Shown: positions 3 through 11,245 of the stretch, piece by piece
How the letters are laid out: the number at the start of each line of letters is the position of its first letter
Position numbering within the stretch: position 1 is the first letter of the stretch
NCBI GenBank assembly: GCA_021819025.1
Contig: JAKASN010000019.1
Location: 1 to 11,245 of the forward strand
Direction: 5' to 3'
DNA length: 11,245 bases
DNA from: Actinomycetes bacterium
Lineage (GTDB): Bacteria; Actinomycetota; Acidimicrobiia; Acidimicrobiales; Acidimicrobiaceae
Notes under the pieces: generated by a model
Database searches by the model: none
Told to the model about the DNA's origin: nothing
The model's input: the letters and a program-made list of their open reading frames with translations, nothing else
Program-made: the position numbers and the translations under genes

Positions 3-1463
3 CGCGATCAGATGGTCGTTGAATACGCGGTATATGTCCAAAGCTTTCTGACCATTTCAGATCCGAGATTACGTGACTCGGTAGGCGACGAAATCGAATC
101 TGGCCTTCTCTGGCCCGAGCCTCGCATAGGACTCAATCCGAGTTTCGAGTCAGGCGGCAAGATCGACGATCTTGCTGACGGGGTAATTCTTCACAAGGAA
201 TGCCGAAAGATCTTTCAGATCAAGTCCGACGACGGCGAGGTCATTAGTCCCCTCGAGCTTCATCCCCACCAGGCACAAGCAATCGAGACCGCCCGCCGAG
301 GCGTCAACTACGTGCTGACTACCGGCACGGGATCCGGCAAGAGCCTTGCATACATCATCCCCATCGTGGACGCAGTTCTGCGCGAAGGTCCAGGCAAAGG
401 GATCAGGGCGATCGTGGTTTACCCGATGAATGCGCTGGCAAACTCCCAGGCCCAAGAACTCGATAAGTACCTCAACTGGGGATATACCAACCGAAGAGGT
501 CCCGTCACGTTCCAGCGCTATACCGGACAAGAAACCGACGCGGAAAAACAAGCCATCATCGAACAGCCACCTGACATCCTGCTCACCAACTACGTAATGC
601 TGGAACTTATTCTTACCCGGGTCGACGAGTTGTGCCTGGTTGACGCCGCCAAAGGTCTGCGATTCTTGGTCTTCGACGAGTTTCACACCTACCCCGGTCG
701 TCAGGGCGCCGACGTCGCGTTCCTGGCCCGGCGTGCCCGGTTGGCGTGCGGCGGTGACAAGCTTCAGATTGTCGGCACCTCGGCAACCGTGAGCAGCGCA
801 GGCGACCCCAGTCGCTCGGCGTATCCAGAGGCGTGGGTCGACCAGATTGAGGTGGATGCCCAGCTTGGCGACTGGCCACACCATTGGCTGCTCGGGTTCG
901 GCAATGCGACCAGCACGACGAACGAACGTACGATGTTGCCTGCGGTGATTCCAAGAACGGCTGTTGGAAACAGTTTCCAACTGATCCTTCCTGCGACACC
1001 TCCAGCGCAGACGGCGCTGCTCGGAGCATCGCTCTCTTCATTCGCGCTGGACTTTATTGTCCGACAAAAGATCGGCGGCGTCAATCTGAGCCACTTTCTC
1101 GTTAAGCAACTCCCCGTGCTCGTACCAGAGACCTACGACCAGCCTGTGCCATGGGATCCCGGACACTCCGTTGCCGACTGGCACGTGCCCCTGGTTCTTG
1201 AGCTCACCTACACTGCATGGGACCTTGCGCCCTGGGCAGCAGAGCTGGGCTACTCGGGTCCTCCCTTTGCCTATGACGAGGCCAGACGCGAACAGCTGCC
1301 GGCTGAGCTGGACGCGTGCTTTTTTCACCTGTATGGGTTTAGCAAAGGGCAGGTCGAATACGCAATGGAGAGTTTCCCAATCGTGAAACGCCATGACGAA
1401 GTACGATATGGCGAGTTTCGCACAAAGCGTATCATCCTTGAGAGTTTCGAATTGTATTCATGA
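3..1463 (+). CDS. Chimeric ORF: N-terminal part of a DEAD/DEAH-box defence helicase fused in frame to the C-terminus of an Eco57I-type N6-adenine DNA methyltransferase
   Basis: Residue numbers count from the ATG at 12. The frame is open to the window edge, so the true start probably lies upstream. Residues 1-265 match the start of large DUF1998-associated helicases: Walker A TGTGSGKS (104-111), VVYPMNALANSQ, TNYVMLELILTR, the DExH motif DEFH (222-225) followed by TYPGRQGADVA, and motif III GTSAT (255-259). From about residue 269 the similarity switches to the C-terminal target-recognition part of a large N6-adenine methylase: WLLGF, TNERT, VIPR, LSSFALDFIVRQKIGG, FLVKQLPVL, LELTYTAWDL, then GEFRTKRIILESF near the stop. 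Helicase domain 2 (arginine finger), DUF1998 and the methylase FxGxG and NPPY motifs are all missing. The product is therefore unlikely to work as either enzyme. Known: both families occur in DISARM- and BREX-like antiphage loci. Inferred: an in-frame deletion removed the helicase 3' part, anything between, and the methylase 5' part. An assembly collapse or a natural fusion is less likely. Confidence 0.82.
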   Translation, partial: RDQMVVEYAVYVQSFLTISDPRLRDSVGDEIESGLLWPEPRIGLNPSFESGGKIDDLADGVILHKECRKIFQIKSDDGEVISPLELHPHQAQAIETARRGVNYVLTTGTGSGKSLAYIIPIVDAVLREGPGKGIRAIVVYPMNALANSQAQELDKYLNWGYTNRRGPVTFQRYTGQETDAEKQAIIEQPPDILLTNYVMLELILTRVDELCLVDAAKGLRFLVFDEFHTYPGRQGADVAFLARRARLACGGDKLQIVGTSATVSSAGDPSRSAYPEAWVDQIEVDAQLGDWPHHWLLGFGNATSTTNERTMLPAVIPRTAVGNSFQLILPATPPAQTALLGASLSSFALDFIVRQKIGGVNLSHFLVKQLPVLVPETYDQPVPWDPGHSVADWHVPLVLELTYTAWDLAPWAAELGYSGPPFAYDEARREQLPAELDACFFHLYGFSKGQVEYAMESFPIVKRHDEVRYGEFRTKRIILESFELYS

Positions 1464-1827: not shown

Positions 1828-4800
1828 ATGAAGAATGGGGAGCGGATACGAACGAGCGACGGTCGACTCGGGGTGGTTAGTTCCGTAAGCGGATCCTGGA
1901 TAGAAGTTGTATTTCCAGACGGCATCGGGCGCGTTCACCTAGATGATGTGAAGCCTGTATCGCAAGGTCCGGTTGAGACGCTTTTGCAAGGTACCCTTGG
2001 AGATGCCATCCCATACGGCCTGAGACTCCAAGCGCTTTATCTTCAGCACGCCTATCGATTCGATCCCCGTTCGGGCCTCTCAAATGCACGAATCGAACCT
2101 AATCTTCATCAAGTATTTATCGCGGATCTCGTCACAAATAAGCTCCAGCCTCGCATGATTCTGGCCGACGAAGTTGGGCTAGGAAAGACCGTTGAAGCGG
2201 GTTTGATATTAAAAGAGTTGCGAGCGCGTGAAGTGATGGAACGCGTGCTCATTGTGTGTCCAGCGAGCCTGCAATACCAGTGGCAGGCTGAGATGCGCTC
2301 GAAATTCAACGAGGACTTTGAGATACTTACTAGCGCCGCGGCAAAGTATTTGGGGCAGGGCGGTGCCAATCCTTTCTTGCAGCGCAATAGTATTATCTGC
2401 TCCCTGCCCTTTGCGAGTGACCCGAAGCGCGCCGAGCAGATCATTGAAGCGCCGTGGGACCTTGTTATCTTTGACGAAGCGCATCGGGTGCGGCGGTGGC
2501 TTGAAAGTCGGGACAAGCCCAAGACTACCCGGGCGTATCGACTCGCAGACGATCTAAAAGACCTCGTTGCTGGACTACTTCTGTTGACCGCTACGCCGAT
2601 GCAGCTACATCCTTTCGAACTTTATTCGCTGATCGAGTTGGTAGAGCCGGGTATGTACGTGGACTTTGCTAGCTACGACAGCCGACGCAAAGAGCTGCCA
2701 CGCCTGAACGACCTGATGATCTCTCTCAAAAAGTGGCATGCGCTATCTGAGGGTGAGCGCGCCGACGTGGCCACCAAGCATTCACAACTCCTTAGAGAGG
2801 TTTTGGGTGATGACGTCGTTCCAAATACGTTGGACGACGATTTGCTCGGCATCGCGATGGATGGCCTCGTTTCAAAGCATCCGCTCGCGGGCGTGATGGT
2901 AAGAAATCGAAAAGCCGAGCTTGGTGGGTTCGCTGGCCGTGAGGCGTCACAGCATTTAGTTCAGCTCGGCGACGACGAGTTGGAACTGTACCAAGACGTT
3001 GCCACGTATCTGCGGGAAAGCTATAACCGCGCGACGGCGCGCAAGCAGCAAGCAATCGGGTTTCTCATGGTGACCTATCACAAGATGCTTGCGAGTAGTT
3101 CCTACGCGATACACCAGAGCCTCAAGCGACGGGTCGCGAAATTACGCAAACAGCTAGCTGGCGCTTCAGGCGAGACGAAGGTCAGGGGCCGCGCCCTAGG
3201 CGGTGAATACGAGGATCCCGTGGAGCTAAGTGAGGTTGTGGAAGAATTAGAAGCCCTGGACTTTGATCCAACTGAGGCTGAAGCTGAGATCGTTGAGCTG
3301 GAAGCACTCGTCGATCGCCTCAGCCAGATTCGTGATTCCAAAGCTTCAGAGCTGCTCGACTTGCTGGAATGGATCTTGGAACGCGATGCAAAAGAGAAGA
3401 TTGTTATCTTCACGCAATTCAAAGAGACACAGTCTTACCTCAAGGCACAACTTGAATTGGCAGGAATAAATGCCACGTGCTTTCACGGATCCCTAAATAT
3501 AGATGAGAAGGAAGATGCAATTCGTCAGTTTCGCAAGGACGCCCAAGTCCTGATATCGACGGAGGCTGGCGGAGAGGGCAGAAACCTTCAGTTCGCGCAC
3601 ATTCTGGTTAACTACGACCTACCTTGGAACCCGATGAAAGTCGAACAACGGATAGGACGGCTTGATAGGATTGGGCAGCGTCGTCAGGTATTCATCTACA
3701 ACCTCGCCTGCAAGGACACCATCGAAGAAAGGGTGTTAGACGTCCTGGGTGAGCGGATACGCCTGTTTAGCGAATCAGTAGGATCCTTAGATCCAATTCT
3801 TGGGCTGGTCGAGCAGAACCTTGCTGAACTTGTGATGAGTCAGTTCGAACGATTCGATGAACGATTCGAGGCATTTGCGGTCGACATTGATCGCATGACC
3901 CGAGAGGCGCGTGCGAACGAACGGGTCCTCGCTGATTTCGTCCTCGATCGTGCAAGTTTACGACGCGACCGAGCGAATGAATTGCTTGGCGAAACTCCTC
4001 TGGCATCGCACATTGATCTTTTCCGTGTCGTCGAGCAGACTTTAGATTACTTCGGCGGAACCGTAAAGCGCCACGTCGATGGCGGGCACGTTGTTACGCT
4101 ATCGCCGAGACTCAGCACCAAACTTCGAACTCGCTCGTCACAACTGAGGGGCGTATTCGATCCGGTCGAGGCGCTTGCTTTTGAGGACTTGGATTTTTTT
4201 GCGATTGGGCACGAACTGATTGACAAGATAATAAATTTTCCAATTCACAACGAAGCGGCGCAGACGACGGCACATCGAGTTTCCGGTCTCATGGATGGAC
4301 CGTACTTGGAGATCTACTATGAGATCCGAGCGGAAGGTTCGGCAGTCGTCGGAAAGGTAATACGACATAGGGTCGCACGGAATGGTCAGGTAAATAGCGA
4401 GGAGGTAATTTCATTGCCGCTCATTGGAGAGCCCATCGAAGTTGAGATACCGGATTGGCTTGATGGTGCCCGGGAGCAGAGTCGCCATCGCTTTGATCAA
4501 GAGCTTGAGTTGGCGAGAGAACTTGCCAGAGATGAGCATCTCACACGCCAGCAAGAGTCTCTCGACCGCGCGGCCCGAATATTCCAATACCGAAAAATTC
4601 GATTGCGGCGACGCATCGACGAAGATGCGGCTTGGATCCAGGATAAGGAGCGTTTTGGCTCCGACAGGGAACGGCGTGTACTACCTGCTCGGCGCGGAAA
4701 GCTCGCCAAGGATACAGAACGTCTCGAACACCTCGTGAGCGAATTCGAGGGGGAATGTGACCTTATCAAGGCTACAAAGGTAAATGTCACGGGAGTTACG

Positions 4801-4830
4801 TGGGCAGCTGCACTGGCGGTAGGAGCGTGA
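1828..4830 (+). CDS. SNF2/RapA-like superfamily 2 helicase, DISARM DrmD-like
   Basis: The gene encodes a 1000-residue DNA-translocating ATPase of the SNF2/RapA type. The N-terminus (about 1-50) looks like a small beta-barrel (SDGRLGVVSSV...WIEVVFPDG). Helicase motifs appear in order: motif I ILADEVGLGKT (111-121), II DEAH (216-219), III TATP (254-257), IV FTQF (528-531), the Q/T-rich STEAGGEGRNLQ, and VI RIGRLDRIGQ (608-617), so the motor looks complete. A charged, coiled-coil-prone insert lies between the two RecA lobes (about 430-515), and the last third (about 650-1000) is helical and charged with no motif I recognise. Known: proteins of this build serve as DrmD in class 1 DISARM and as helicases in other defence loci, and they also resemble the RNA polymerase recycler RapA. 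The neighbouring methylase and DEAD-helicase remnants favour the defence role. The stop overlaps the next start (GTGA). An ATG at 1795 is the alternative, weaker start. Confidence 0.88.
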   Translation: MKNGERIRTSDGRLGVVSSVSGSWIEVVFPDGIGRVHLDDVKPVSQGPVETLLQGTLGDAIPYGLRLQALYLQHAYRFDPRSGLSNARIEPNLHQVFIADLVTNKLQPRMILADEVGLGKTVEAGLILKELRAREVMERVLIVCPASLQYQWQAEMRSKFNEDFEILTSAAAKYLGQGGANPFLQRNSIICSLPFASDPKRAEQIIEAPWDLVIFDEAHRVRRWLESRDKPKTTRAYRLADDLKDLVAGLLLLTATPMQLHPFELYSLIELVEPGMYVDFASYDSRRKELPRLNDLMISLKKWHALSEGERADVATKHSQLLREVLGDDVVPNTLDDDLLGIAMDGLVSKHPLAGVMVRNRKAELGGFAGREASQHLVQLGDDELELYQDVATYLRESYNRATARKQQAIGFLMVTYHKMLASSSYAIHQSLKRRVAKLRKQLAGASGETKVRGRALGGEYEDPVELSEVVEELEALDFDPTEAEAEIVELEALVDRLSQIRDSKASELLDLLEWILERDAKEKIVIFTQFKETQSYLKAQLELAGINATCFHGSLNIDEKEDAIRQFRKDAQVLISTEAGGEGRNLQFAHILVNYDLPWNPMKVEQRIGRLDRIGQRRQVFIYNLACKDTIEERVLDVLGERIRLFSESVGSLDPILGLVEQNLAELVMSQFERFDERFEAFAVDIDRMTREARANERVLADFVLDRASLRRDRANELLGETPLASHIDLFRVVEQTLDYFGGTVKRHVDGGHVVTLSPRLSTKLRTRSSQLRGVFDPVEALAFEDLDFFAIGHELIDKIINFPIHNEAAQTTAHRVSGLMDGPYLEIYYEIRAEGSAVVGKVIRHRVARNGQVNSEEVISLPLIGEPIEVEIPDWLDGAREQSRHRFDQELELARELARDEHLTRQQESLDRAARIFQYRKIRLRRRIDEDAAWIQDKERFGSDRERRVLPARRGKLAKDTERLEHLVSEFEGECDLIKATKVNVTGVTWAAALAVGA

Positions 4831-6080
4831 GTCGCCCTCTCGCTTATGGAATCGACTTTGGAACGTCGAATAGCTCTATCTCGGTGGCGTGGAATGATGG
4901 CGCGGAGATTGGCGCGGTCAATGATAGGGGTGATACCTTCATGCCGTCGATCGTCTACATTGATTCGACCCGAAACCGCCTAGCGGGTATTGATGCGGTT
5001 GACAACTATGTTCGCTTTGCTACAGACCCAAGTCGCGCGCGAATCATGTCGTCGCTCAAGTCGTTCCTGACAGATCGATCATTTCAATTGACCACGACGG
5101 CTTGGGGCGAGCGCTTTACCATGCCCGACCTTGTCGCGATCATTTTGCGTGAGCTGAAACGGGCCAATGACGAGCGGTTGAATGCAAATGTAGAGCGCGT
5201 AGTAATAGGACATCCGGTGCTATTTGCGGGAGCCGTTGGTCCAGGCTTCGAGAGTCTGCAGGACCACGCCCTCGCACAACTCGAGCAAGCGGCTCGGATA
5301 GCTGGCTTCAAAGAGATTGAATTTCTCGATGAGCCTACCGCCGCATCCATGGGAGAAGACCAGACGGAGGGCATTGTAATGGCTCTCGACTTCGGCGGTG
5401 GAACTTTCGACGCCTCAATTATCGATTTTTCTGCAGAGATTGGCGAGGTGCTTTCGATGCATGGAGCGGCGATCGGCGGCGAACTCTTTGACACGTTGCT
5501 ATTTGATGCAAAAGTGGCCCGAGAACTCAACCTTGATCGGGAATACGTGATTAATGGCAAGCGTATGGCGGTCCCAGGCGTGCTTCGGAACATGAGAACG
5601 CTGCACGAAATCATTGGCATGGTTGGTGACGACCGAGTTAGAAGGGCCTTTGAGTATTTGAATCTTGCTGGAGACGCCCCTATGGCCGTCGTCGAAGAAA
5701 TAATTTATGGCGGCCATGCGTACAATTTCTTCCGTGCAATTGAGAATGCGAAGATCGAGCTGTCATCACAGCGCGCTTCCACGATTCGCTTTCGACGGCC
5801 ACTGATCGATATATCGATCCCCGTGCAGCAAGGCGAGTTCGAAGCTTTAATCGAGGCAAACATTGAAACCATCGATTTTCAGGTCGATCGGACTCTTGCC
5901 GACGCACGCTTGGATGCAAAGGACGTGGATTTAGTAATACGAACCGGTGGATCGTCGCGAATTCCGGCATTTGTACATCGTTTGGAAGATCGCTTTGGTC
6001 AAGAAAAGTTAGTAGAACGGGATGCTTTTACAACGGTGGCGCTTGGCCTAGGGATGCGGGCATGCGAGTTGTGGGGTTAG
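4827..6080 (+). CDS. Hsp70-family protein, ATPase domain only (YegD-like)
   Basis: The 417-residue protein carries the actin/Hsp70 ATPase signatures: phosphate 1 GIDFGTSNSS (8-17), DEPTAAS (168-174), phosphate 2 LDFGGGTFDAS (187-197) and the adenosine motif RTGGSSRIP (372-380). It ends after the nucleotide-binding domain, with no linker or substrate-binding domain, so it is far shorter than DnaK (about 640 residues) and close to E. coli YegD (about 450). It has no signal peptide or membrane segment and is cytosolic. The GTG at 4827 is chosen because it overlaps the helicase stop as GTGA, typical of translational coupling. An in-frame GTG at 4800 would overlap by 31 bases and adds a Gly/Cys-rich tail with no family similarity. 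AGGAG lies at 4821-4825, very close to the start, so coupling may matter more than direct binding. The fixed association with a SNF2 helicase suggests an ATP-dependent switch or remodelling factor for that complex; this role is inference. Confidence 0.85.
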   Translation: MSRPLAYGIDFGTSNSSISVAWNDGAEIGAVNDRGDTFMPSIVYIDSTRNRLAGIDAVDNYVRFATDPSRARIMSSLKSFLTDRSFQLTTTAWGERFTMPDLVAIILRELKRANDERLNANVERVVIGHPVLFAGAVGPGFESLQDHALAQLEQAARIAGFKEIEFLDEPTAASMGEDQTEGIVMALDFGGGTFDASIIDFSAEIGEVLSMHGAAIGGELFDTLLFDAKVARELNLDREYVINGKRMAVPGVLRNMRTLHEIIGMVGDDRVRRAFEYLNLAGDAPMAVVEEIIYGGHAYNFFRAIENAKIELSSQRASTIRFRRPLIDISIPVQQGEFEALIEANIETIDFQVDRTLADARLDAKDVDLVIRTGGSSRIPAFVHRLEDRFGQEKLVERDAFTTVALGLGMRACELWG

Positions 6081-6502
6081 AACGAATGTTAAAGCGACGT
6101 CGACATATTCTTACACCAGAAGAAGTGGAGCGCAACCAGCCGGACACCGATTCAATGAATCCCATTGGCGGAAGACGACGTTCGGTCTTCAAACGTCTCA
6201 TGGTTAGGCAGAGTGCCGGCGAGGGTCGAACCGTCTTGGAGGCCGTCGAAGGTGGAGTACCCCACTTCCATGGTAGCCATGATGCTGCTGATCACACGAC
6301 CGCACGAGACGAGGCCCTGGCAGTTGCGGATGTTCAGGCGCAAAAATCCTCGGAGGAACCGGAGGCGGGCTCGTTGGAAACTCTGACTGTGCTGGATCAA
6401 AGTCTTGTACGAGATTTCACACGGAAATTACCGAAAAAGTCTATTCGGATGTCAGACGATGTGCGGGACCGATATAGCCAGGAACCTCCGGTGGTTCCAT
6501 AG
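6062..6502 (+). CDS. Small charged protein of unknown function, third gene of the SNF2-hsp70 operon
   Basis: I do not recognise this 146-residue protein. It has a basic N-terminus (KRRRH, then GRRRSVFKRLMVRQ), a Gly/His/Asp-rich middle (HFHGSHDAADH), an acidic stretch (SSEEPEAG) and a basic tail before a proline end. It looks largely disordered and has no signal peptide, membrane segment or catalytic motif. The ATG at 6062 overlaps the end of the hsp70 gene by 19 bases and has AGGG eight bases upstream. A second in-frame ATG at 6086 lies just past the hsp70 stop, with GGGG nine bases upstream, and would give 138 residues. Either start means tight coupling. An adaptor, nucleic-acid-binding partner or Hsp70 co-factor is plausible by position alone. 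Confidence 0.65.
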   Translation: MRVVGLERMLKRRRHILTPEEVERNQPDTDSMNPIGGRRRSVFKRLMVRQSAGEGRTVLEAVEGGVPHFHGSHDAADHTTARDEALAVADVQAQKSSEEPEAGSLETLTVLDQSLVRDFTRKLPKKSIRMSDDVRDRYSQEPPVVP

Positions 6503-6784: not shown

Positions 6785-7471
6785 TCATCCTCGGTTCCAG
6801 CTTACGGAGCTGGCAGCAACGAGGCGCGACTGTTCTACTACGACGTCATATAGCATTGCGACTCTGCGGACCATGATGCCGGATTGCAGATCAAACCGTA
6901 CTGAGAGTGAAGTGGCTCGATTCACTCCACCTGGAATTGGTTGACCGCCGTCGACCGTGCAAATAAGGCGTACATCCAAGAAGCCGTTGCCGTTACGTTC
7001 CCATTGACTTGGATGATCCATCAATTTCCAGTTGGTTGCTATCCATTCTGGATAGATGAACGAAGTCGCGAGCTTGGCCACGAGTTCGTCGCCCGAAAGA
7101 CTCCAGTGTCTCCGATCCGTAACGTCCCAAGTCTTGATTGCTTTCGTCGTCGAACCGCGGTAGTTTAGCGACAAAAATGGGAATTCGAATTTCATGCGAT
7201 AGCGACCCAAGTCTGTTTCTGGTGGCTCTTGGCGAAAACGCTGGCCAGATGGGGCAACTAGCATCCGTATGAGAAAATGCATGGGTCGGAGCAGTAGAGG
7301 GCCGTGAACTTCAGGGATTATCGTTTCGCCTCGCATGGTAGCTACGAAACGAGCCGGATGATACATCTGGATTAACGAGCAGTTGATCGTAGCTAGCCGC
7401 TTGTTGCGATAAAGTATCGCGTCGATTGCGGACCAGCCTGAGTCCTCGGGGAAAGCATTAGTGGTGTTCAT
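6785..7471 (-). CDS. Unknown 228-residue protein, second gene of a minus-strand pair
   Basis: The ATG at 7471-7469 overlaps the stop of the upstream secreted-protein gene as ATGA, which makes it the likely start and implies translational coupling. A longer frame back to 7546 would lie inside the neighbour. The protein has no clear signal peptide or membrane helix. It is aromatic and beta-strand-like in the middle (MKFEFPFLSLNYRG, TWDVTDRRHWSLSG). Its end (RFDLQSGIMVRRVA...) resembles the closing strands of LolA-like actinobacterial proteins, which often carry D-x-x-T/S-G-x-x-x-R near the C-terminus. That resemblance is weak, and I cannot name a family. Given the secreted partner, it could be an envelope-related factor or an immunity-like partner. 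An inverted repeat (CCAGCT...AGCTGG, 6797-6813) lies in its last codons. Confidence 0.62.
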   Translation of the reverse strand: MNTTNAFPEDSGWSAIDAILYRNKRLATINCSLIQMYHPARFVATMRGETIIPEVHGPLLLRPMHFLIRMLVAPSGQRFRQEPPETDLGRYRMKFEFPFLSLNYRGSTTKAIKTWDVTDRRHWSLSGDELVAKLATSFIYPEWIATNWKLMDHPSQWERNGNGFLDVRLICTVDGGQPIPGGVNRATSLSVRFDLQSGIMVRRVAMLYDVVVEQSRLVAASSVSWNRG

Positions 7472-7998
7472 ACGATGTAGACCTTCGCACTGATATACCA
7501 AGTTGGGGACGCACAAGCCCAATCTCCATTTTCCCAAATTACGCATGGCATGTTGACTGCTGCGGAGTAGTCGGCAAAAAAAGTGTAGGACCAGCCAGTG
7601 CTGAAAAATCCAGTCGGCGAATTCAAGTATTGCTGCATGTAGTTCTCCGACTTGACGATTCGTTCGTTTCTGTTCAGGTCAAGGCCATCAATCCTCAAAA
7701 AGCTGAAGTTGCCGCTGTACGACCTAAACGACACCAGCGCCTGCTTTGCTTCGGTCCAGTCATTCACATTGACAGTGACGCAGAACTGTGCCCAGTCGCC
7801 TTTGGCAGAGATGAGGTTATAGCAGCTTGTTCCCGCCCAAAGCAAAGGGGATGCAACTGAGGTTGGTGTGGCATTGTGACTGGAGTCCAGGACACCGGCA
7901 GAAGCAGAAATTGGTAGTAGCAGGGCACCCGACGCGATGGCCAACGATGTTATCAGCGAATACGTGATACGAGTCAGTACCTTTTGCAGAAGCCTCAT
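7468..7998 (-). CDS. Sec-secreted four-cysteine protein of unknown function
   Basis: The 176-residue product begins with a textbook Sec signal peptide: basic MRLLQKVLTR, a hydrophobic core (about 13-30) and the signal peptidase I site ASA before Gly35. There is no lipobox and no twin-arginine motif. The mature part (about 142 residues) has cysteines at 59, 73, 152 and 162, enough for two disulfides, and is rich in W, Y, F, N and S, suggesting a compact beta-rich exported domain. The ATG at 7998 is preferred over one 11 codons upstream because CGGAG lies five bases before it and the signal peptide then starts properly. I recognise no enzyme motif. It overlaps the next gene by ATGA, so the two are co-translated and probably work together. 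Confidence 0.7.
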   Translation of the reverse strand: MRLLQKVLTRITYSLITSLAIASGALLLPISASAGVLDSSHNATPTSVASPLLWAGTSCYNLISAKGDWAQFCVTVNVNDWTEAKQALVSFRSYSGNFSFLRIDGLDLNRNERIVKSENYMQQYLNSPTGFFSTGWSYTFFADYSAAVNMPCVIWENGDWACASPTWYISAKVYIV

Positions 7999-8079
7999 TG
8001 TCACTCCGATCCGATGGTCGCGATCACCCAAGTTCAGGTGAAACCAATATGAAAACTATCAGAGTGCAATGATCTAAGA

Positions 8080-8827: not shown

Positions 8828-9317
8828 TCAAGATCGCCCGGGCCTTTTGTTGAGTGGCGGTTTCGGCGCGACCCCTCTCTTATCGCGGAGCCGAGCGGTA
8901 AGCTCGATCTCGACCGCAATGCCAAAAAGGTAGCTGCTGCACAAGGCCTACGGCATTGCGCGTGTGTCGTCCAGCCTCTGCGAAAACTTCTACGAGCAGC
9001 CCTGAACGGCCGTCGATCACAGCTGGGGTCCGGTCGAATCCCGGTGCGACATTGACGATTCCAAATACATTGATGAATCTCTGAATGCGATCGAGGTCTC
9101 TATGCTCTGCTTGCAAGCTGGCAAGTACTGGGAGGGCGGTGATATGCGCGGCGTGTTTTCCTTCGGCCAAGCTGAGATCGTCACCGCCCTTTCCTCGGAT
9201 TGCCTGCTCCCCATTCATCGGGCCATTTCCGCCAAGATAGGCGATGCCGTTGTCGATGACACATCTCAAGTGGTTGGCGGCTGGCGGGAATAGTGGGGCA
9301 AAGACGATTCCGAGAGC
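8828..9317 (-). pseudogene. RidA/YjgF/YER057c/UK114-family pseudogene
   Basis: Read on the - strand from 9317, the frame begins ALGIVFAPLFPPAANHLR and continues with IAYLGGNGPM, ITALPVLASLQAEHRDLDRI, FGIVNVAPGF, PAVIDGRSGLLVEVFAEAGR and RNAVGLVQQLP. This is the conserved path of an imine/enamine deaminase-like RidA protein, nearly full length (about 150 residues). Two defects are visible. An in-frame TAG at 9318-9320 directly precedes it, with no start codon until residue 17. A one-base length error in the five-A run at 8924-8928 breaks the C-terminus. Removing one base restores LPFGIAVEIELTAR, the normal ending, and the frame then runs to a TGA at 8828-8830. It lies in the same orientation as the ligase upstream, suggesting a former shared operon. 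The frameshift alone could be a sequencing error; the missing start argues for real decay. Confidence 0.7.
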
Positions 9318-9554
9318 CTAGAGACCTCCAGCGAGCTTGCCAAATGCTACCTCGCCCCCAGCCGGTGTAATTGGAGCATCGATCGAGATATCGGCGTTGA
9401 TGACGAGGCGATCTCATTGCACAGCGGTGAGTTTCACGCTTCGTTGGGTTCGCAGTGGTGGCGCAATCACCATGGCGCGTGCAAGCGCCGCAGTTCTCTG
9501 CCGCTCATCTTGGTTGTCGAGGTAGCTCGGATCGACCGAGATTGACTTGCGGAG
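9318..9554 (-). pseudogene. Probable remnant of a GMC-family oxidoreductase C-terminus
   Basis: Directly after the ligase stop and in the same frame, the - strand reads SISVDPSYLDNQDER, then AALARAMVIAPPLR. This recalls the GMC C-terminal domain pattern (I-x-x-DP-x-YL ... A-x-x-IA-x-x-PxL). A TGA interrupts at 9414-9416. After it, RLVINADISI and DAPITPAGGEVAFGKLAGGL could be what remains of the closing L-x-V-x-DAS ... NTNAP ... GEKAA segment, shortened by deletion, before the TAG at 9318-9320. The roughly 60 residues normally between these blocks, and the whole FAD-binding domain, are absent. Only about 75 residues survive. The family call is tentative; the broken state is clear. Confidence 0.38.
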
Positions 9555-11027
9555 CTAGTCTCTTTCGCGCAGAGGCCCCTTGATGATCTTTCCCACCGAA
9601 TTCTTCGGCAGTTGTGCTTCGATGAAGATTGCGCTCGGCACTTTGTAGCGCGCCAGCGAGGTTTCACAGTATTGCAGAAGTTCAGCTTCGCTGATTGATG
9701 CGCCATCTTTGAGCGCGACGTAGGCGACCACTACTTCGCCGAGGCGCGAGTCGGGCTTTCCCACCACTGCGGCTTCGAGCACCGCCGGGTGCGAGTAGAG
9801 GACGTTTTCAATTTCTTTGGGGTAGATGTTCTCACCGCCGCGAATGATCATATCCTTGAGGCGATCCACCAGTACCAGGTAGTGGTCGGGATCGAAGAAT
9901 CCAATGTCTCCGGTGTGCAGGACACCTCCGCGCAGCGCCGCAGCGCTTTCGGCGGGGCGATTCCAATAGCCGCGCATAACGGTTGGGCCCCCGATGACGA
10001 CCTCGCCAGGTTCGCCCTGGGGAAGCTCGTCGCCATTTTCATCTACCACCGCCACGGTCTGGCCCGGAAGCGCCAGGCCAACCGTGCCTGGCTTGTGGAG
10101 GCCATGTAACGGGTTGAGTGTAGACGCTACGGTTGCCTCCGAGAGTCCATATCCCTCGACAATGGGGACGCCATAGCGGGTCTCAAATGCTGTGATCATC
10201 CCAGCTGGCATCGGAGCCGCGCCACAGATGACAAATCTCAGACTGGAGGTATCCGCGCTCGTCTCAGGCGGCAATGCCGTGAGCATGTTATACATCGTGG
10301 GCACCGCCGAGAAATAACTTGGCCGTTCAGCTTCTACGGTTCCCCAGAATTGCTTGGGATCGAACCTCGGGGCAATCGCCACCGATCCATTGGCCCAAAG
10401 GGGCGAGATGGTGCCCGCGATAAGGCCATTGGCATGAAAGAGTGGCAGCACGAGGAGACTGGTGTCGCTTGCGGTGAGCTCGAGAGCTGCGATCATCGAC
10501 TCGCACATCGCCGCGATGTTGGCGTGATCGATCATGACGCCCTTGGGTTTGCCGGTGGTGCCGCTGGTGTAGATCAACAAAGCGAGTTGAGAATCATCAA
10601 GATGGGATGTGGTCACTGTGGTATCGGGTTCACCGGAGGCGAAATCGTCGGCAAAGATTGTCGTTGTTGTCGCCGTCGCGGCGCGCCCAGCGGTGTCGGG
10701 ATCGACCAAGACCACTTTGGCGGCCGAATCGGTAATTTGATAGCTGGCCTCAGGGGCGGTAAGGGCGGGGTTGATGGGCGTCACCGCAGCCCCAAGTCGC
10801 CATGCGGAAAACAGCGCGATGATCATCTCGGCCCGGTTCGGCAACATCACCGCGGCGATATCGCCTCGCTTTATCCCGTGGCGGGCCAAGTTGGCGGCGC
10901 CAGCGCTGACCGCAGCCGCAAACTGGGCGTTGCTAAAGGTGCCATTGATCGCGCTGAGGCACTTCCCATCGGGATCTTGGCGGGCGCGAAATTCGGGTAA
11001 CTCAACCAAAGGAACTCTTGGAGGCAT
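9555..11027 (-). CDS. Class I adenylate-forming acyl-CoA ligase (FadD-like)
   Basis: The 490-residue protein is a complete acyl/aryl-CoA synthetase: it activates a carboxylic acid with ATP to the acyl-adenylate, then transfers it to CoA. Motifs are in place: P-loop YTSGTTGKPKG (153-163), A4/A5 region ICGAAPMP and EGYGLSEA (291-298), HTGD (371-374), hinge DRLKDMIIRGGENIYP (388-403) and the catalytic lysine in NSVGK (Lys480). Length and ending (GPLRERD) are typical, so it looks functional. The substrate cannot be read from the sequence; a medium-chain fatty or aromatic acid is usual for this group. It is cytosolic, with no signal peptide. The ATG at 11027-11025 is supported by the family N-terminus, although the upstream Shine-Dalgarno is weak. 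Downstream lie GMC- and RidA-like remnants in the same orientation, and upstream a divergent hydantoinase gene, suggesting a small catabolic cluster. Confidence 0.92.
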   Translation of the reverse strand: MPPRVPLVELPEFRARQDPDGKCLSAINGTFSNAQFAAAVSAGAANLARHGIKRGDIAAVMLPNRAEMIIALFSAWRLGAAVTPINPALTAPEASYQITDSAAKVVLVDPDTAGRAATATTTTIFADDFASGEPDTTVTTSHLDDSQLALLIYTSGTTGKPKGVMIDHANIAAMCESMIAALELTASDTSLLVLPLFHANGLIAGTISPLWANGSVAIAPRFDPKQFWGTVEAERPSYFSAVPTMYNMLTALPPETSADTSSLRFVICGAAPMPAGMITAFETRYGVPIVEGYGLSEATVASTLNPLHGLHKPGTVGLALPGQTVAVVDENGDELPQGEPGEVVIGGPTVMRGYWNRPAESAAALRGGVLHTGDIGFFDPDHYLVLVDRLKDMIIRGGENIYPKEIENVLYSHPAVLEAAVVGKPDSRLGEVVVAYVALKDGASISEAELLQYCETSLARYKVPSAIFIEAQLPKNSVGKIIKGPLRERD

Positions 11028-11192
11028 AATCGACCAGGTTAGGCCACCGAGAGGCTCCGGTCTATGTTCTCAGAGACCAAAAGTCTTCCGAAATTTCGTG
11101 TGGCGGAGCCAATGCCCAAGGGTGTGACCGATGTTACATTTCTTGACGCGACCCAATCACAGCTCGCTCGGTGATATGAGGAATGGAGAGCC
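11028..11192. promoter_or_regulatory. Divergent promoter region between the ligase and hydantoinase genes
   Basis: These 165 bp separate two divergently read genes and must hold both promoters. An inverted repeat GGTCT (11059-11063) / AGACC (11074-11078) with a 10-base centre lies 32 bases before the ligase start and could be a regulator site. For the right-hand gene, GGAG at 11185-11188 sits four bases before the ATG. No confident -35/-10 pair stands out. Confidence 0.4.
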
Positions 11193-11245
11193 ATGGGCAA
11201 GCGCCTGATAAATATCGACAATGGTGGAACTCTGACCGACGTTTG
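11193..11245 (+). CDS. Hydantoinase/oxoprolinase A-family protein, N-terminal fragment
   Basis: Only 17 codons lie in the window. The translation MGKRLINIDNGGTLTDV matches the conserved first strand and phosphate-binding turn of hydantoinase A / 5-oxoprolinase / acetone carboxylase beta-like ATPases (I-D-x-GGTxTDV). GGAG lies four bases before the ATG. These ATP-dependent enzymes act on cyclic amides or carboxylate ketones; which applies here cannot be told from the fragment. The Asn in DNGG in place of the commoner DIGG or DVGG is a variant I recall from an actinobacterial subgroup. The gene continues past the right edge. Confidence 0.72.
   Translation, partial: MGKRLINIDNGGTLTDV

Follow-up and report, generated by a model that had tools for sequence, protein, structure and literature searches.

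Three overlapping genes in an actinomycete contig, encoding an SNF2 translocase, an Hsp70-type ATPase and a small charged protein, form a candidate accessory defence module

Do the SNF2, Hsp70 and third genes of this locus belong together, and is the unit they form part of a defence system, one of its own, or something else? The window, that is the whole stretch of DNA analysed here, is 11,245 nucleotides long. It contains no Rfam family at the gathering thresholds, and its repeats resemble chance. The features discussed are:

3..1463, plus strand: neighbour outside the trio, remnant of ARMADA type I with the N-terminal part of YprA and the C-terminal part of a methylase (sequence similarity)
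1828..4830, plus strand: SNF2 translocase of RapA-like architecture, 1000 aa (profile matches, motifs, predicted structure)
4827..6080, plus strand: Hsp70 nucleotide-binding domain (NBD) only, YegD-like, 417 aa (profile match, motifs)
6062..6502, plus strand: third gene, 146 aa, charged (N-terminal motif HILTPEEVER, codon use)

The last three genes are a compact operon. An initial annotation had described them as an intact SNF2 protein, an Hsp70 without substrate domain and a charged small protein in overlapping or abutting frames, and the reading frames, profiles and motifs confirm this. All three proteins are also encoded, at 100% identity, by a database contig of 33,655 nucleotides that is longer than the contig of the window.

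The SNF2 gene starts with ATG (1828) behind a GGAGG, and its protein carries the motifs GLGKT (117), DEAH (216), TATP (254) and QRIGRLDR (607) and matches PF00176 (2e-20) and PF00271 (1e-24). The predicted structure is middling (mean pLDDT 76.9, pTM 0.46), and its domain arrangement is not used as evidence; long C-terminal helices are predicted at residues 878-943 and 952-982. The closest solved structure to the model is RapA of E. coli (1.7e-36), whose alignment to the SNF2 profile spans 744 columns. For most of the window SNF2 the domain layout of the two proteins is the same; however, the latter has an insert that RapA lacks, its C-terminal helical region lies outside the alignment, and its gene is linked to that of an Hsp70. 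It scores below the cut-offs of the RapA equivalog model (348 vs 576 bits, NCBIfam NF003426) and of the DrmD model (323 vs 610 bits), and it matches the PADLOC BrxHI/BrxHII model at 9e-104. In a quick tree of 47 SNF2 rows, which include 26 of the 119 listed relatives from outside the window and among which long branches (RapA, DrmD, two viral rows) and unusual composition were flagged, its family is a clade of its own with support 99. An HSA domain gave no profile match in the window ORFs that were scanned.

The likely start of the Hsp70 gene is the GTG at 4827, overlapping the SNF2 stop by 4 nt, and this gives the 417 residues stated by the initial annotation. The match to PF00012 is clear (6e-38, 130.9 bits vs a cut-off of 20.6), and the motifs DFGTSN, EPTAA, DFGGGTFD and GGSSRIP are kept. 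We take the first, third and fourth of these to be the phosphate 1, phosphate 2 and adenosine motifs, all of which, as in the NBD of the Hsp70 superfamily, are present. The ATPase motifs are intact in both the SNF2 and the Hsp70 protein. The Hsp70 terminates at ...GLGMRACELWG, directly after the NBD; therefore the substrate-binding domain of a canonical Hsp70 chaperone is absent, and the linker is absent as well. YegD-type proteins are also NBD-only, and the window Hsp70 can be aligned end to end with YegD, but it falls in a separate clade, is linked to SNF2 and scores 118 bits against the YegD equivalog cut-off of 331 (NCBIfam NF008673). Its family is again a clade of its own (support 100) in a quick tree of 53 Hsp70 rows, 34 of them from the 119 listed relatives outside the window. 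The best PADLOC match is weak (E 0.008). Cyanobacterial plasmid Hsp70s, whose genes adjoin DnaJ and GrpE, were considered as relatives of the trio and rejected.

The two large genes travel together. Of the 83 listed Hsp70 relatives on contigs of 4.3 kb or longer, 38, the window's own pair included, could be matched to the contig of a listed SNF2 relative, where about 0.6 would be expected by chance. The distances within the two families agree as well (Mantel r 0.92, with 0 of 5000 permutations as high), in a test that permutes rows and ignores their relatedness. Both results use the best 120 of at least 923 Hsp70 matches and the best 120 of at least 3408 SNF2 matches, and a shared contig is inferred by proxy, from the equal size of the two contigs. 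At all four loci that were read, the gene order and the overlaps are the same (4 nt between SNF2 and Hsp70, 10-19 nt between Hsp70 and the third ORF), and a third ORF with a common N-terminal motif is present. SNF2, Hsp70 and third ORF are a real conserved unit.

The module is also rare and patchy. In four genome samples, centre genomes included, it was found in 3 of 138, 1 of 397, 1 of 42 and 2 of 296 genomes (a match in G1502, having the same place and score as that in G947, was taken as the same genome). A class sample around G671 gave 3 of 395, the same three genomes as before, and phylum-level samples gave no new loci (1 of 296 and 1 of 246, each the genome already known). The module is absent from the 11 other genomes of the same genus that were searched, some of them incomplete. 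Among 80 genome-contig loci listed, some of them short, SNF2 adjoins Hsp70 only in L004, and in L081 a weak SNF2 match (28%, 4e-7) lies about 8 kb from the Hsp70 gene. Searches of plasmids (Hsp70 and SNF2) and of phages (Hsp70) gave no match above 60% identity, and in scans of viral contigs with both proteins the best match had 39% identity, which is no close relative. All four genomic loci apparently belong to a single class, and wide transfer is therefore not demonstrated.

The surroundings of the trio differ between loci. In the sister genome G922 the match to the window begins only at position 9443, which leaves the trio region unmatched. Defence genes are nearby at two of the four loci: the ARMADA type I remnant in the window and a type III restriction-modification-like pair in G947. 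At the other two, L004 and L223, the neighbours are housekeeping-looking or have no assignment, these names being mostly read from translations (only the L004 shikimate kinase was profile-scanned). The proposed association of the Hsp70 with defence genes thus holds at the first pair of loci but not at the second.

RapA is a recycler of the host RNA polymerase. The trio could accordingly be an accessory transcription or stress module, where the SNF2 protein would act like RapA on host polymerase and the Hsp70-like ATPase and the third protein would be loading or recycling factors under stress. The structural match to RapA, the full-length alignment with YegD and the settings of L004 and L223 speak for such a role. 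However, the very patchy distribution, with absence even within the genus, the fast evolution of the third gene (below) and the scores under both the RapA and YegD cut-offs do not fit it well; further, the window copy lies in a region unlike that of the sister genome, beside a remnant whose relative in the same-genus genome G399 sits in a defence island. We consider a transcription or stress role the less likely reading, but a serious rival.

The third protein is charged but balanced (16% K+R, 16% D+E, net charge 0), and an alternative start of its gene is possible at ATG 6086. It has no relative in 5.8 billion proteins (the one match among 68 candidates is itself), it lacks the C-terminal CxxC region of the other three third proteins, to which it is 17-23% identical, and an open frame of this length has a chance of about 0.07 alone. 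From these observations it could be argued that only SNF2 and Hsp70 make up the module, and that the small ORF of the window is a chance or decayed frame. Against this, each of the other three loci also has a third ORF overlapping its Hsp70 gene. The window motif HILTPEEVER resembles theirs more closely than most shuffles do (as good a match arose in 44 of 20000 shuffles within the first 40 positions and in 137 of 20000 at any position), and it ranks best among 84 open stretches of the window. The codon use is coding-like by a table made from SNF2 and Hsp70 (0.10 in its own frame vs -0.14 and -0.20 in the other two); by a ligase table it scores -0.14, and there SNF2 itself is slightly negative too. 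For the one pair measured, the third gene is constrained but fast (pN/pS 0.62 vs 0.28 and 0.29 for the others). A unit of two genes is in our opinion improbable.

Upstream of the trio, the initial annotation had seen helicase and methylase remnants. They are present, but as one ORF (3-1463), in which YprA is fused in frame to the methylase as assembled (junction about 789-837), and not as separate remnants. The YprA similarity extends to about residue 267, without the C-terminal DUF1998/nuclease region, and the similarity to a PglX-like methylase starts at 262-278 and is confined to the C-terminal part of that protein (roughly residues 1139-1344 of the 1375 in PD04). ARMADA type I, described by Bell et al. 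2025 (PMC12458937), consists of YprA, BrxHII and a PglX-like methylase; BrxHII lies between the other two in four annotated ARMADA type I plasmids, and G399 keeps the same order. The system thus also holds a RapA/BrxHII-like SNF2 helicase, but of another clade: five ARMADA BrxHII proteins group by themselves (support 100, quick tree) and are 27-29% identical to the window SNF2 over the aligned part. The window SNF2 was for these reasons, and because G399 has its own BrxHII, rejected as the ARMADA helicase. The YprA and methylase pieces, which follow the ARMADA type I gene order and gave no tblastn match (E up to 1e-3) in the 18.5-20 kb stretches of the other three loci, were likewise rejected as members of the trio. 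That these remnants belong to the trio is consequently not borne out. That the trio is part of an ARMADA type I or DISARM-like system with Hsp70 as an added subunit, as the common strand, the 364 bp spacing and the RapA/BrxHII-like helicase of both systems (in the available part of PMC12458937) might suggest, is very improbable given the separate BrxHII and the lone trios elsewhere.

The comparison with other defence systems gives a similar picture. In DISARM class 1, DrmD is an SNF2 helicase of the same wide family, but the trio lacks DrmB, DrmC and a methylase of its own; in the window ORFs scanned, the DISARM core is represented only by a weak DrmA match in ORF 3-1463 (6e-08), with no match to DrmB, DrmC or the DISARM methylase. 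Nor was BREX PglZ matched in these ORFs, despite the BrxHI/BrxHII match of SNF2. Hsp70 parts have precedents in defence. CnuD of CoCoNuT systems is, in the part of PMC11090510 available, an Hsp70-like component, as the trio Hsp70 would be, but it is an NBD/SBD unit whose Walker A-like motif is degenerate, and it occurs in McrBC systems with predicted RNA targeting; the trio Hsp70 is NBD only with intact motifs, and the scanned ORFs gave no McrBC match. Sensing by bNACHT25 depends on DnaJ, according to an excerpt of PMC12169576. The main text of the ARMADA paper (PMC12458937) nowhere uses the word Hsp70, and the literature searched gave no description of a trio of SNF2, Hsp70 and third gene. 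As a unit it is apparently undescribed, in agreement with the initial annotation.

The reading we prefer, at a probability of roughly one half, is that the trio is a self-contained accessory defence module with a RapA-like translocase, an Hsp70-type switch and a disordered adaptor, all predicted. The translocase would move on double-stranded DNA and strip or stall protein complexes on invading DNA, for instance phage transcription or replication complexes. The module would neither cut nor methylate DNA, as no nuclease or methylase is recognised in the trio, nor any other effector. The Hsp70-type ATPase may be a nucleotide-driven clamp that docks on SNF2, perhaps on the long C-terminal helices, and toggles the motor between an idle and an active state. 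Through the conserved motif at its N-terminus the third protein may tether this pair, and sensing or target binding would fall to its fast-changing middle and, at three loci, to the CxxC tail.

In favour of this defence reading we counted the linkage, the Mantel test, the separate clades, the conserved order, the fast third gene, the patchiness, the mismatch with G922, the defence neighbours, the intact motifs and the precedents of CnuD and bNACHT25. Counted against it were the settings of L004 and L223, the lack of an effector, the likeness to RapA, the apparent confinement to one class, the lack of close plasmid, phage or viral relatives, the lack of a database relative of the window third protein, the lack of an HSA match for the putative docking, and the quick method of both trees with the warnings on that of SNF2.

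Eukaryotic SWI/SNF and INO80 motors carry actin/Arp modules. By analogy, the trio could be a bacterial SNF2 remodeller whose dedicated subunit, an actin-fold ATPase of the Hsp70 type, would be a works-alike of the actin/Arp modules. The NBD on the long C-terminal helices would serve as a nucleotide-controlled clutch, and the fast-evolving, disordered adaptor would direct the motor to replication or transcription complexes of foreign origin. This is a doubtful proposal. Were it true, the trio would represent an undescribed kind of antiviral system that works without a nuclease.

Should the trio prove to be a defence system, an Hsp70-type switch would be joined there to an SNF2 motor. Since no nuclease or methylase is recognisable, its action would then be by moving or stripping protein-DNA complexes. 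Both SNF2 and Hsp70 offer clear motifs to mutate, so a role for an NBD-only Hsp70 of this kind is directly testable.

The window is one entire contig (C444) of a 2.74 Mb assembly that is 74% complete and consists of 543 contigs. It contains the following features:

3-1463, plus strand, leftmost open reading frame (ORF) of the window, open at the contig edge
1828-4830, plus strand, SNF2 gene, with ATG at 1828 behind GGAGG
4827-6080, plus strand, Hsp70 gene, with a GTG start at 4827
6062-6502, plus strand, small third ORF
6785-7546, minus strand, ORF with no Pfam family
7468-8031, minus strand, ORF with no Pfam family
8880-9269, minus strand, YjgF-like fragment (PF14588)
9555-11027, AMP-binding (acyl-CoA ligase-like) gene

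The GTG of the Hsp70 gene has four bases in common with the SNF2 stop, and an alignment shows that this start agrees with the N-termini of relatives. In the sister genome G922 (65% complete) the match to the window is confined to 9443-11245, at 92%, and the left part of the window is therefore variable. The YjgF-like fragment lies between the SNF2-Hsp70-third gene trio and the acyl-CoA ligase gene, close to this synteny break at 9443. By eye, the start of the ORF at 7468-8031, which lies beside the trio, resembles a signal peptide.

The SNF2 and Hsp70 genes belong together. Linkage was counted between the best 120 of 923 Hsp70 relatives and the best 120 of 3408 SNF2 relatives, using contigs of the same size as a proxy for one contig. 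Of these Hsp70s, 83 come from contigs of 4300 nt or longer, and 38 of the 83, the window's own among them, share their contig size with a listed SNF2 relative; 500 draws of random lists of similar lengths gave a mean of 0.62 such pairings and a maximum of 4. Further, the two proteins diverge in parallel: the distance matrices of the 38 pairs correlate with r = 0.92, a value reached by none of 5000 permutations of the rows (relatedness uncorrected), and the nearest neighbour is identical for both proteins in 25 pairs.

Quick trees give a similar picture. In the SNF2 tree of 47 rows, where RapA, DrmD and two viral rows sit on long branches and 12 rows have an odd composition, the subfamily forms a clade of 28 rows (18 linked and 10 of unknown linkage, SH-aLRT 99) with linked rows spread throughout, and five rows from the defence system ARMADA form a separate clade with support 100. 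In the Hsp70 tree of 53 rows the family clade holds 38 rows (24 linked, 14 of unknown linkage; support 100). The 15 rows outside it are YegD, with no SNF2 annotated beside its gene, and 14 rows with no SNF2 match in the stretch examined, some of these stretches being short.

Both proteins keep intact ATPase motifs. The SNF2 protein matches SNF2-rel_dom and Helicase_C in Pfam, with a RapA_C match under the cut-off, and its top PADLOC model is BrxHI/BrxHII (9e-104). The top NCBIfam models are RapA and DrmD, each under its cut-off. The closest solved relative is RapA of E. coli, both by sequence (2e-60) and by fold (1.7e-36, from a model of only moderate quality); it aligns with the SNF2 profile across 744 columns, compared with 591 for the ARMADA BrxHII of Rhodococcus PD04. 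In the C-terminal part the same moderate model predicts long helices at 878-943 and 952-982. Some SNF2 relatives (P0203, P0204 and P0205) carry an extra PadR-type regulator domain, PF03551.

The Hsp70 consists of the nucleotide-binding domain (NBD) only and retains the nucleotide-site motifs. It can be aligned with YegD from end to end, yet scores only 118 of 331 bits on the YegD model. A four-cysteine regular expression is matched by 19 of the 38 linked Hsp70s, all of 431-454 aa, and a 31-row alignment places the cysteines in an insert; the window Hsp70 has none of the four. The insert typifies much, but not all, of one SNF2-linked sub-clade, with P0040, P0072 and the Hsp70s of L004, L222 and L223, the other three loci with the trio, as examples. 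These three loci, where the third gene has a CxxC region, belong to that sub-clade.

In L004, L222 and L223 (genomes G671, G947 and G953) the third ORF encodes 231-252 aa and shares 10 nt with the Hsp70 gene. These proteins contain 13-16% proline, many charged residues and a CxxC-bearing region near the end. In the alignment the N-termini of the third proteins show a motif of the type YxP[TS]P[EK]E, which in the window reads HILTPEEVER. Of 20000 shuffles, 44 reach the score of the window motif when only the first 40 positions are considered, and 137 reach it when any position is allowed; among 84 open stretches of the window this score ranks first (20.7 against 13.0 for the second). Since identity to the other three is just 17-23%, the small ORF of the window is only a probable ortholog. 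Its sole match among 5.8 billion proteins is its own copy, and none of the four third proteins matches a family in Pfam or PADLOC. The third gene evolves fast between L004 and L223: its pN/pS is 0.62, compared with values of 0.28 (SNF2) and 0.29 (Hsp70), a rough guide only because this is a single pair with synonymous sites close to saturation.

The distribution is patchy. At E up to 1e-60, in overlapping samples that count the centre genome, the Hsp70 is found around the window's genome in 1 of 296 (phylum), 2 of 296 (class), 1 of 397 (order) and 1 of 42 (family) genomes, and around G671 in 1 of 246 (phylum), 3 of 395 (class) and 3 of 138 (order). A single class seems to contain all four loci, because G671, G947 and G953 are of one order and G1502, taken to be the same genome as G947, is of the window's class. 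Upstream of the trio in G947 there is a type III methylase with a weakly matching Res-like helicase, separated from the trio by a shikimate kinase/dehydroquinate synthase gene. The surroundings of L223 and L004 show only housekeeping-looking or unassigned genes, mostly named by eye from translations.

The ORF at 3-1463 is the remnant of a system other than the trio. Its residues 1-267 correspond to the start of YprA helicases (55-57% identity), and from residues 262-278 on it corresponds to the methylase end of the same plasmid systems (33-43%). The order YprA - helicase - methylase is found in Rhodococcus PD04, Nocardioides JS614, R. qingshengii VT6 and Deinococcus radiophilus; the gene tables of these stretches, which are incomplete, list no Hsp70. 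In Chroococcidiopsis the order is helicase - methylase, other genes, then a DEAD helicase. A further stretch, from a Streptomyces plasmid, carries no annotation. According to Bell et al. (PMC12458937), YprA - helicase - methylase is the arrangement of ARMADA type I, and a reversed order occurs in many archaea and cyanobacteria. Relative to PD04, arithmetic gives about 10.6 kb absent from the window, and ARMADA's own BrxHII would fall within it.

The YprA start is present in 5 of 118 order-level genomes, the window's own included (E up to 1e-40). The nearest, 81% identical, is in G399, of the same genus, where a YprA gene interrupted by an insert, then BrxHII and then the methylase are followed by GmrSD and nSTAND3-Mrr genes, with no SNF2-Hsp70 following the methylase. 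This split suggests that the decay of ARMADA type I is not confined to a single genome of the genus. The stretch that splits YprA (L232:9671-11178) resembles an insertion element by eye. Downstream of the full methylase, a second partial C-terminal copy (L236:9570-10339) is 46% identical to the window piece. Together L232 and L236 form a dense defence island with a DUF4011/MTES_1575 helicase-nuclease, ARMADA type I, GmrSD and nSTAND3-Mrr. Among the other stretches with a YprA start, L234 (G364) has no methylase match after the helicase, and the contigs of L233 and L235 end too soon to judge.

Within the main texts of PMC12458937 and PMC12839542, the word Hsp70 is absent. CoCoNuT has Hsp70 proteins (PMC11090510) and one antiphage sensor depends on DnaJ (PMC12169576). 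Our literature searches, covering titles and abstract openings with most subscription papers out of reach, found no SNF2-Hsp70 pair of this kind among the papers listed.

The SNF2 protein would translocate on DNA, because this activity is an established property of the SNF2 family. Hsp70 NBDs undergo nucleotide-driven movements, and because of these the Hsp70 may act as a clamp or clutch. The motif, make-up and speed of the third protein suggest that it could tether and sense. Because none of the trio proteins was recognised as a nuclease or methylase, we propose that the trio would remodel rather than cut.
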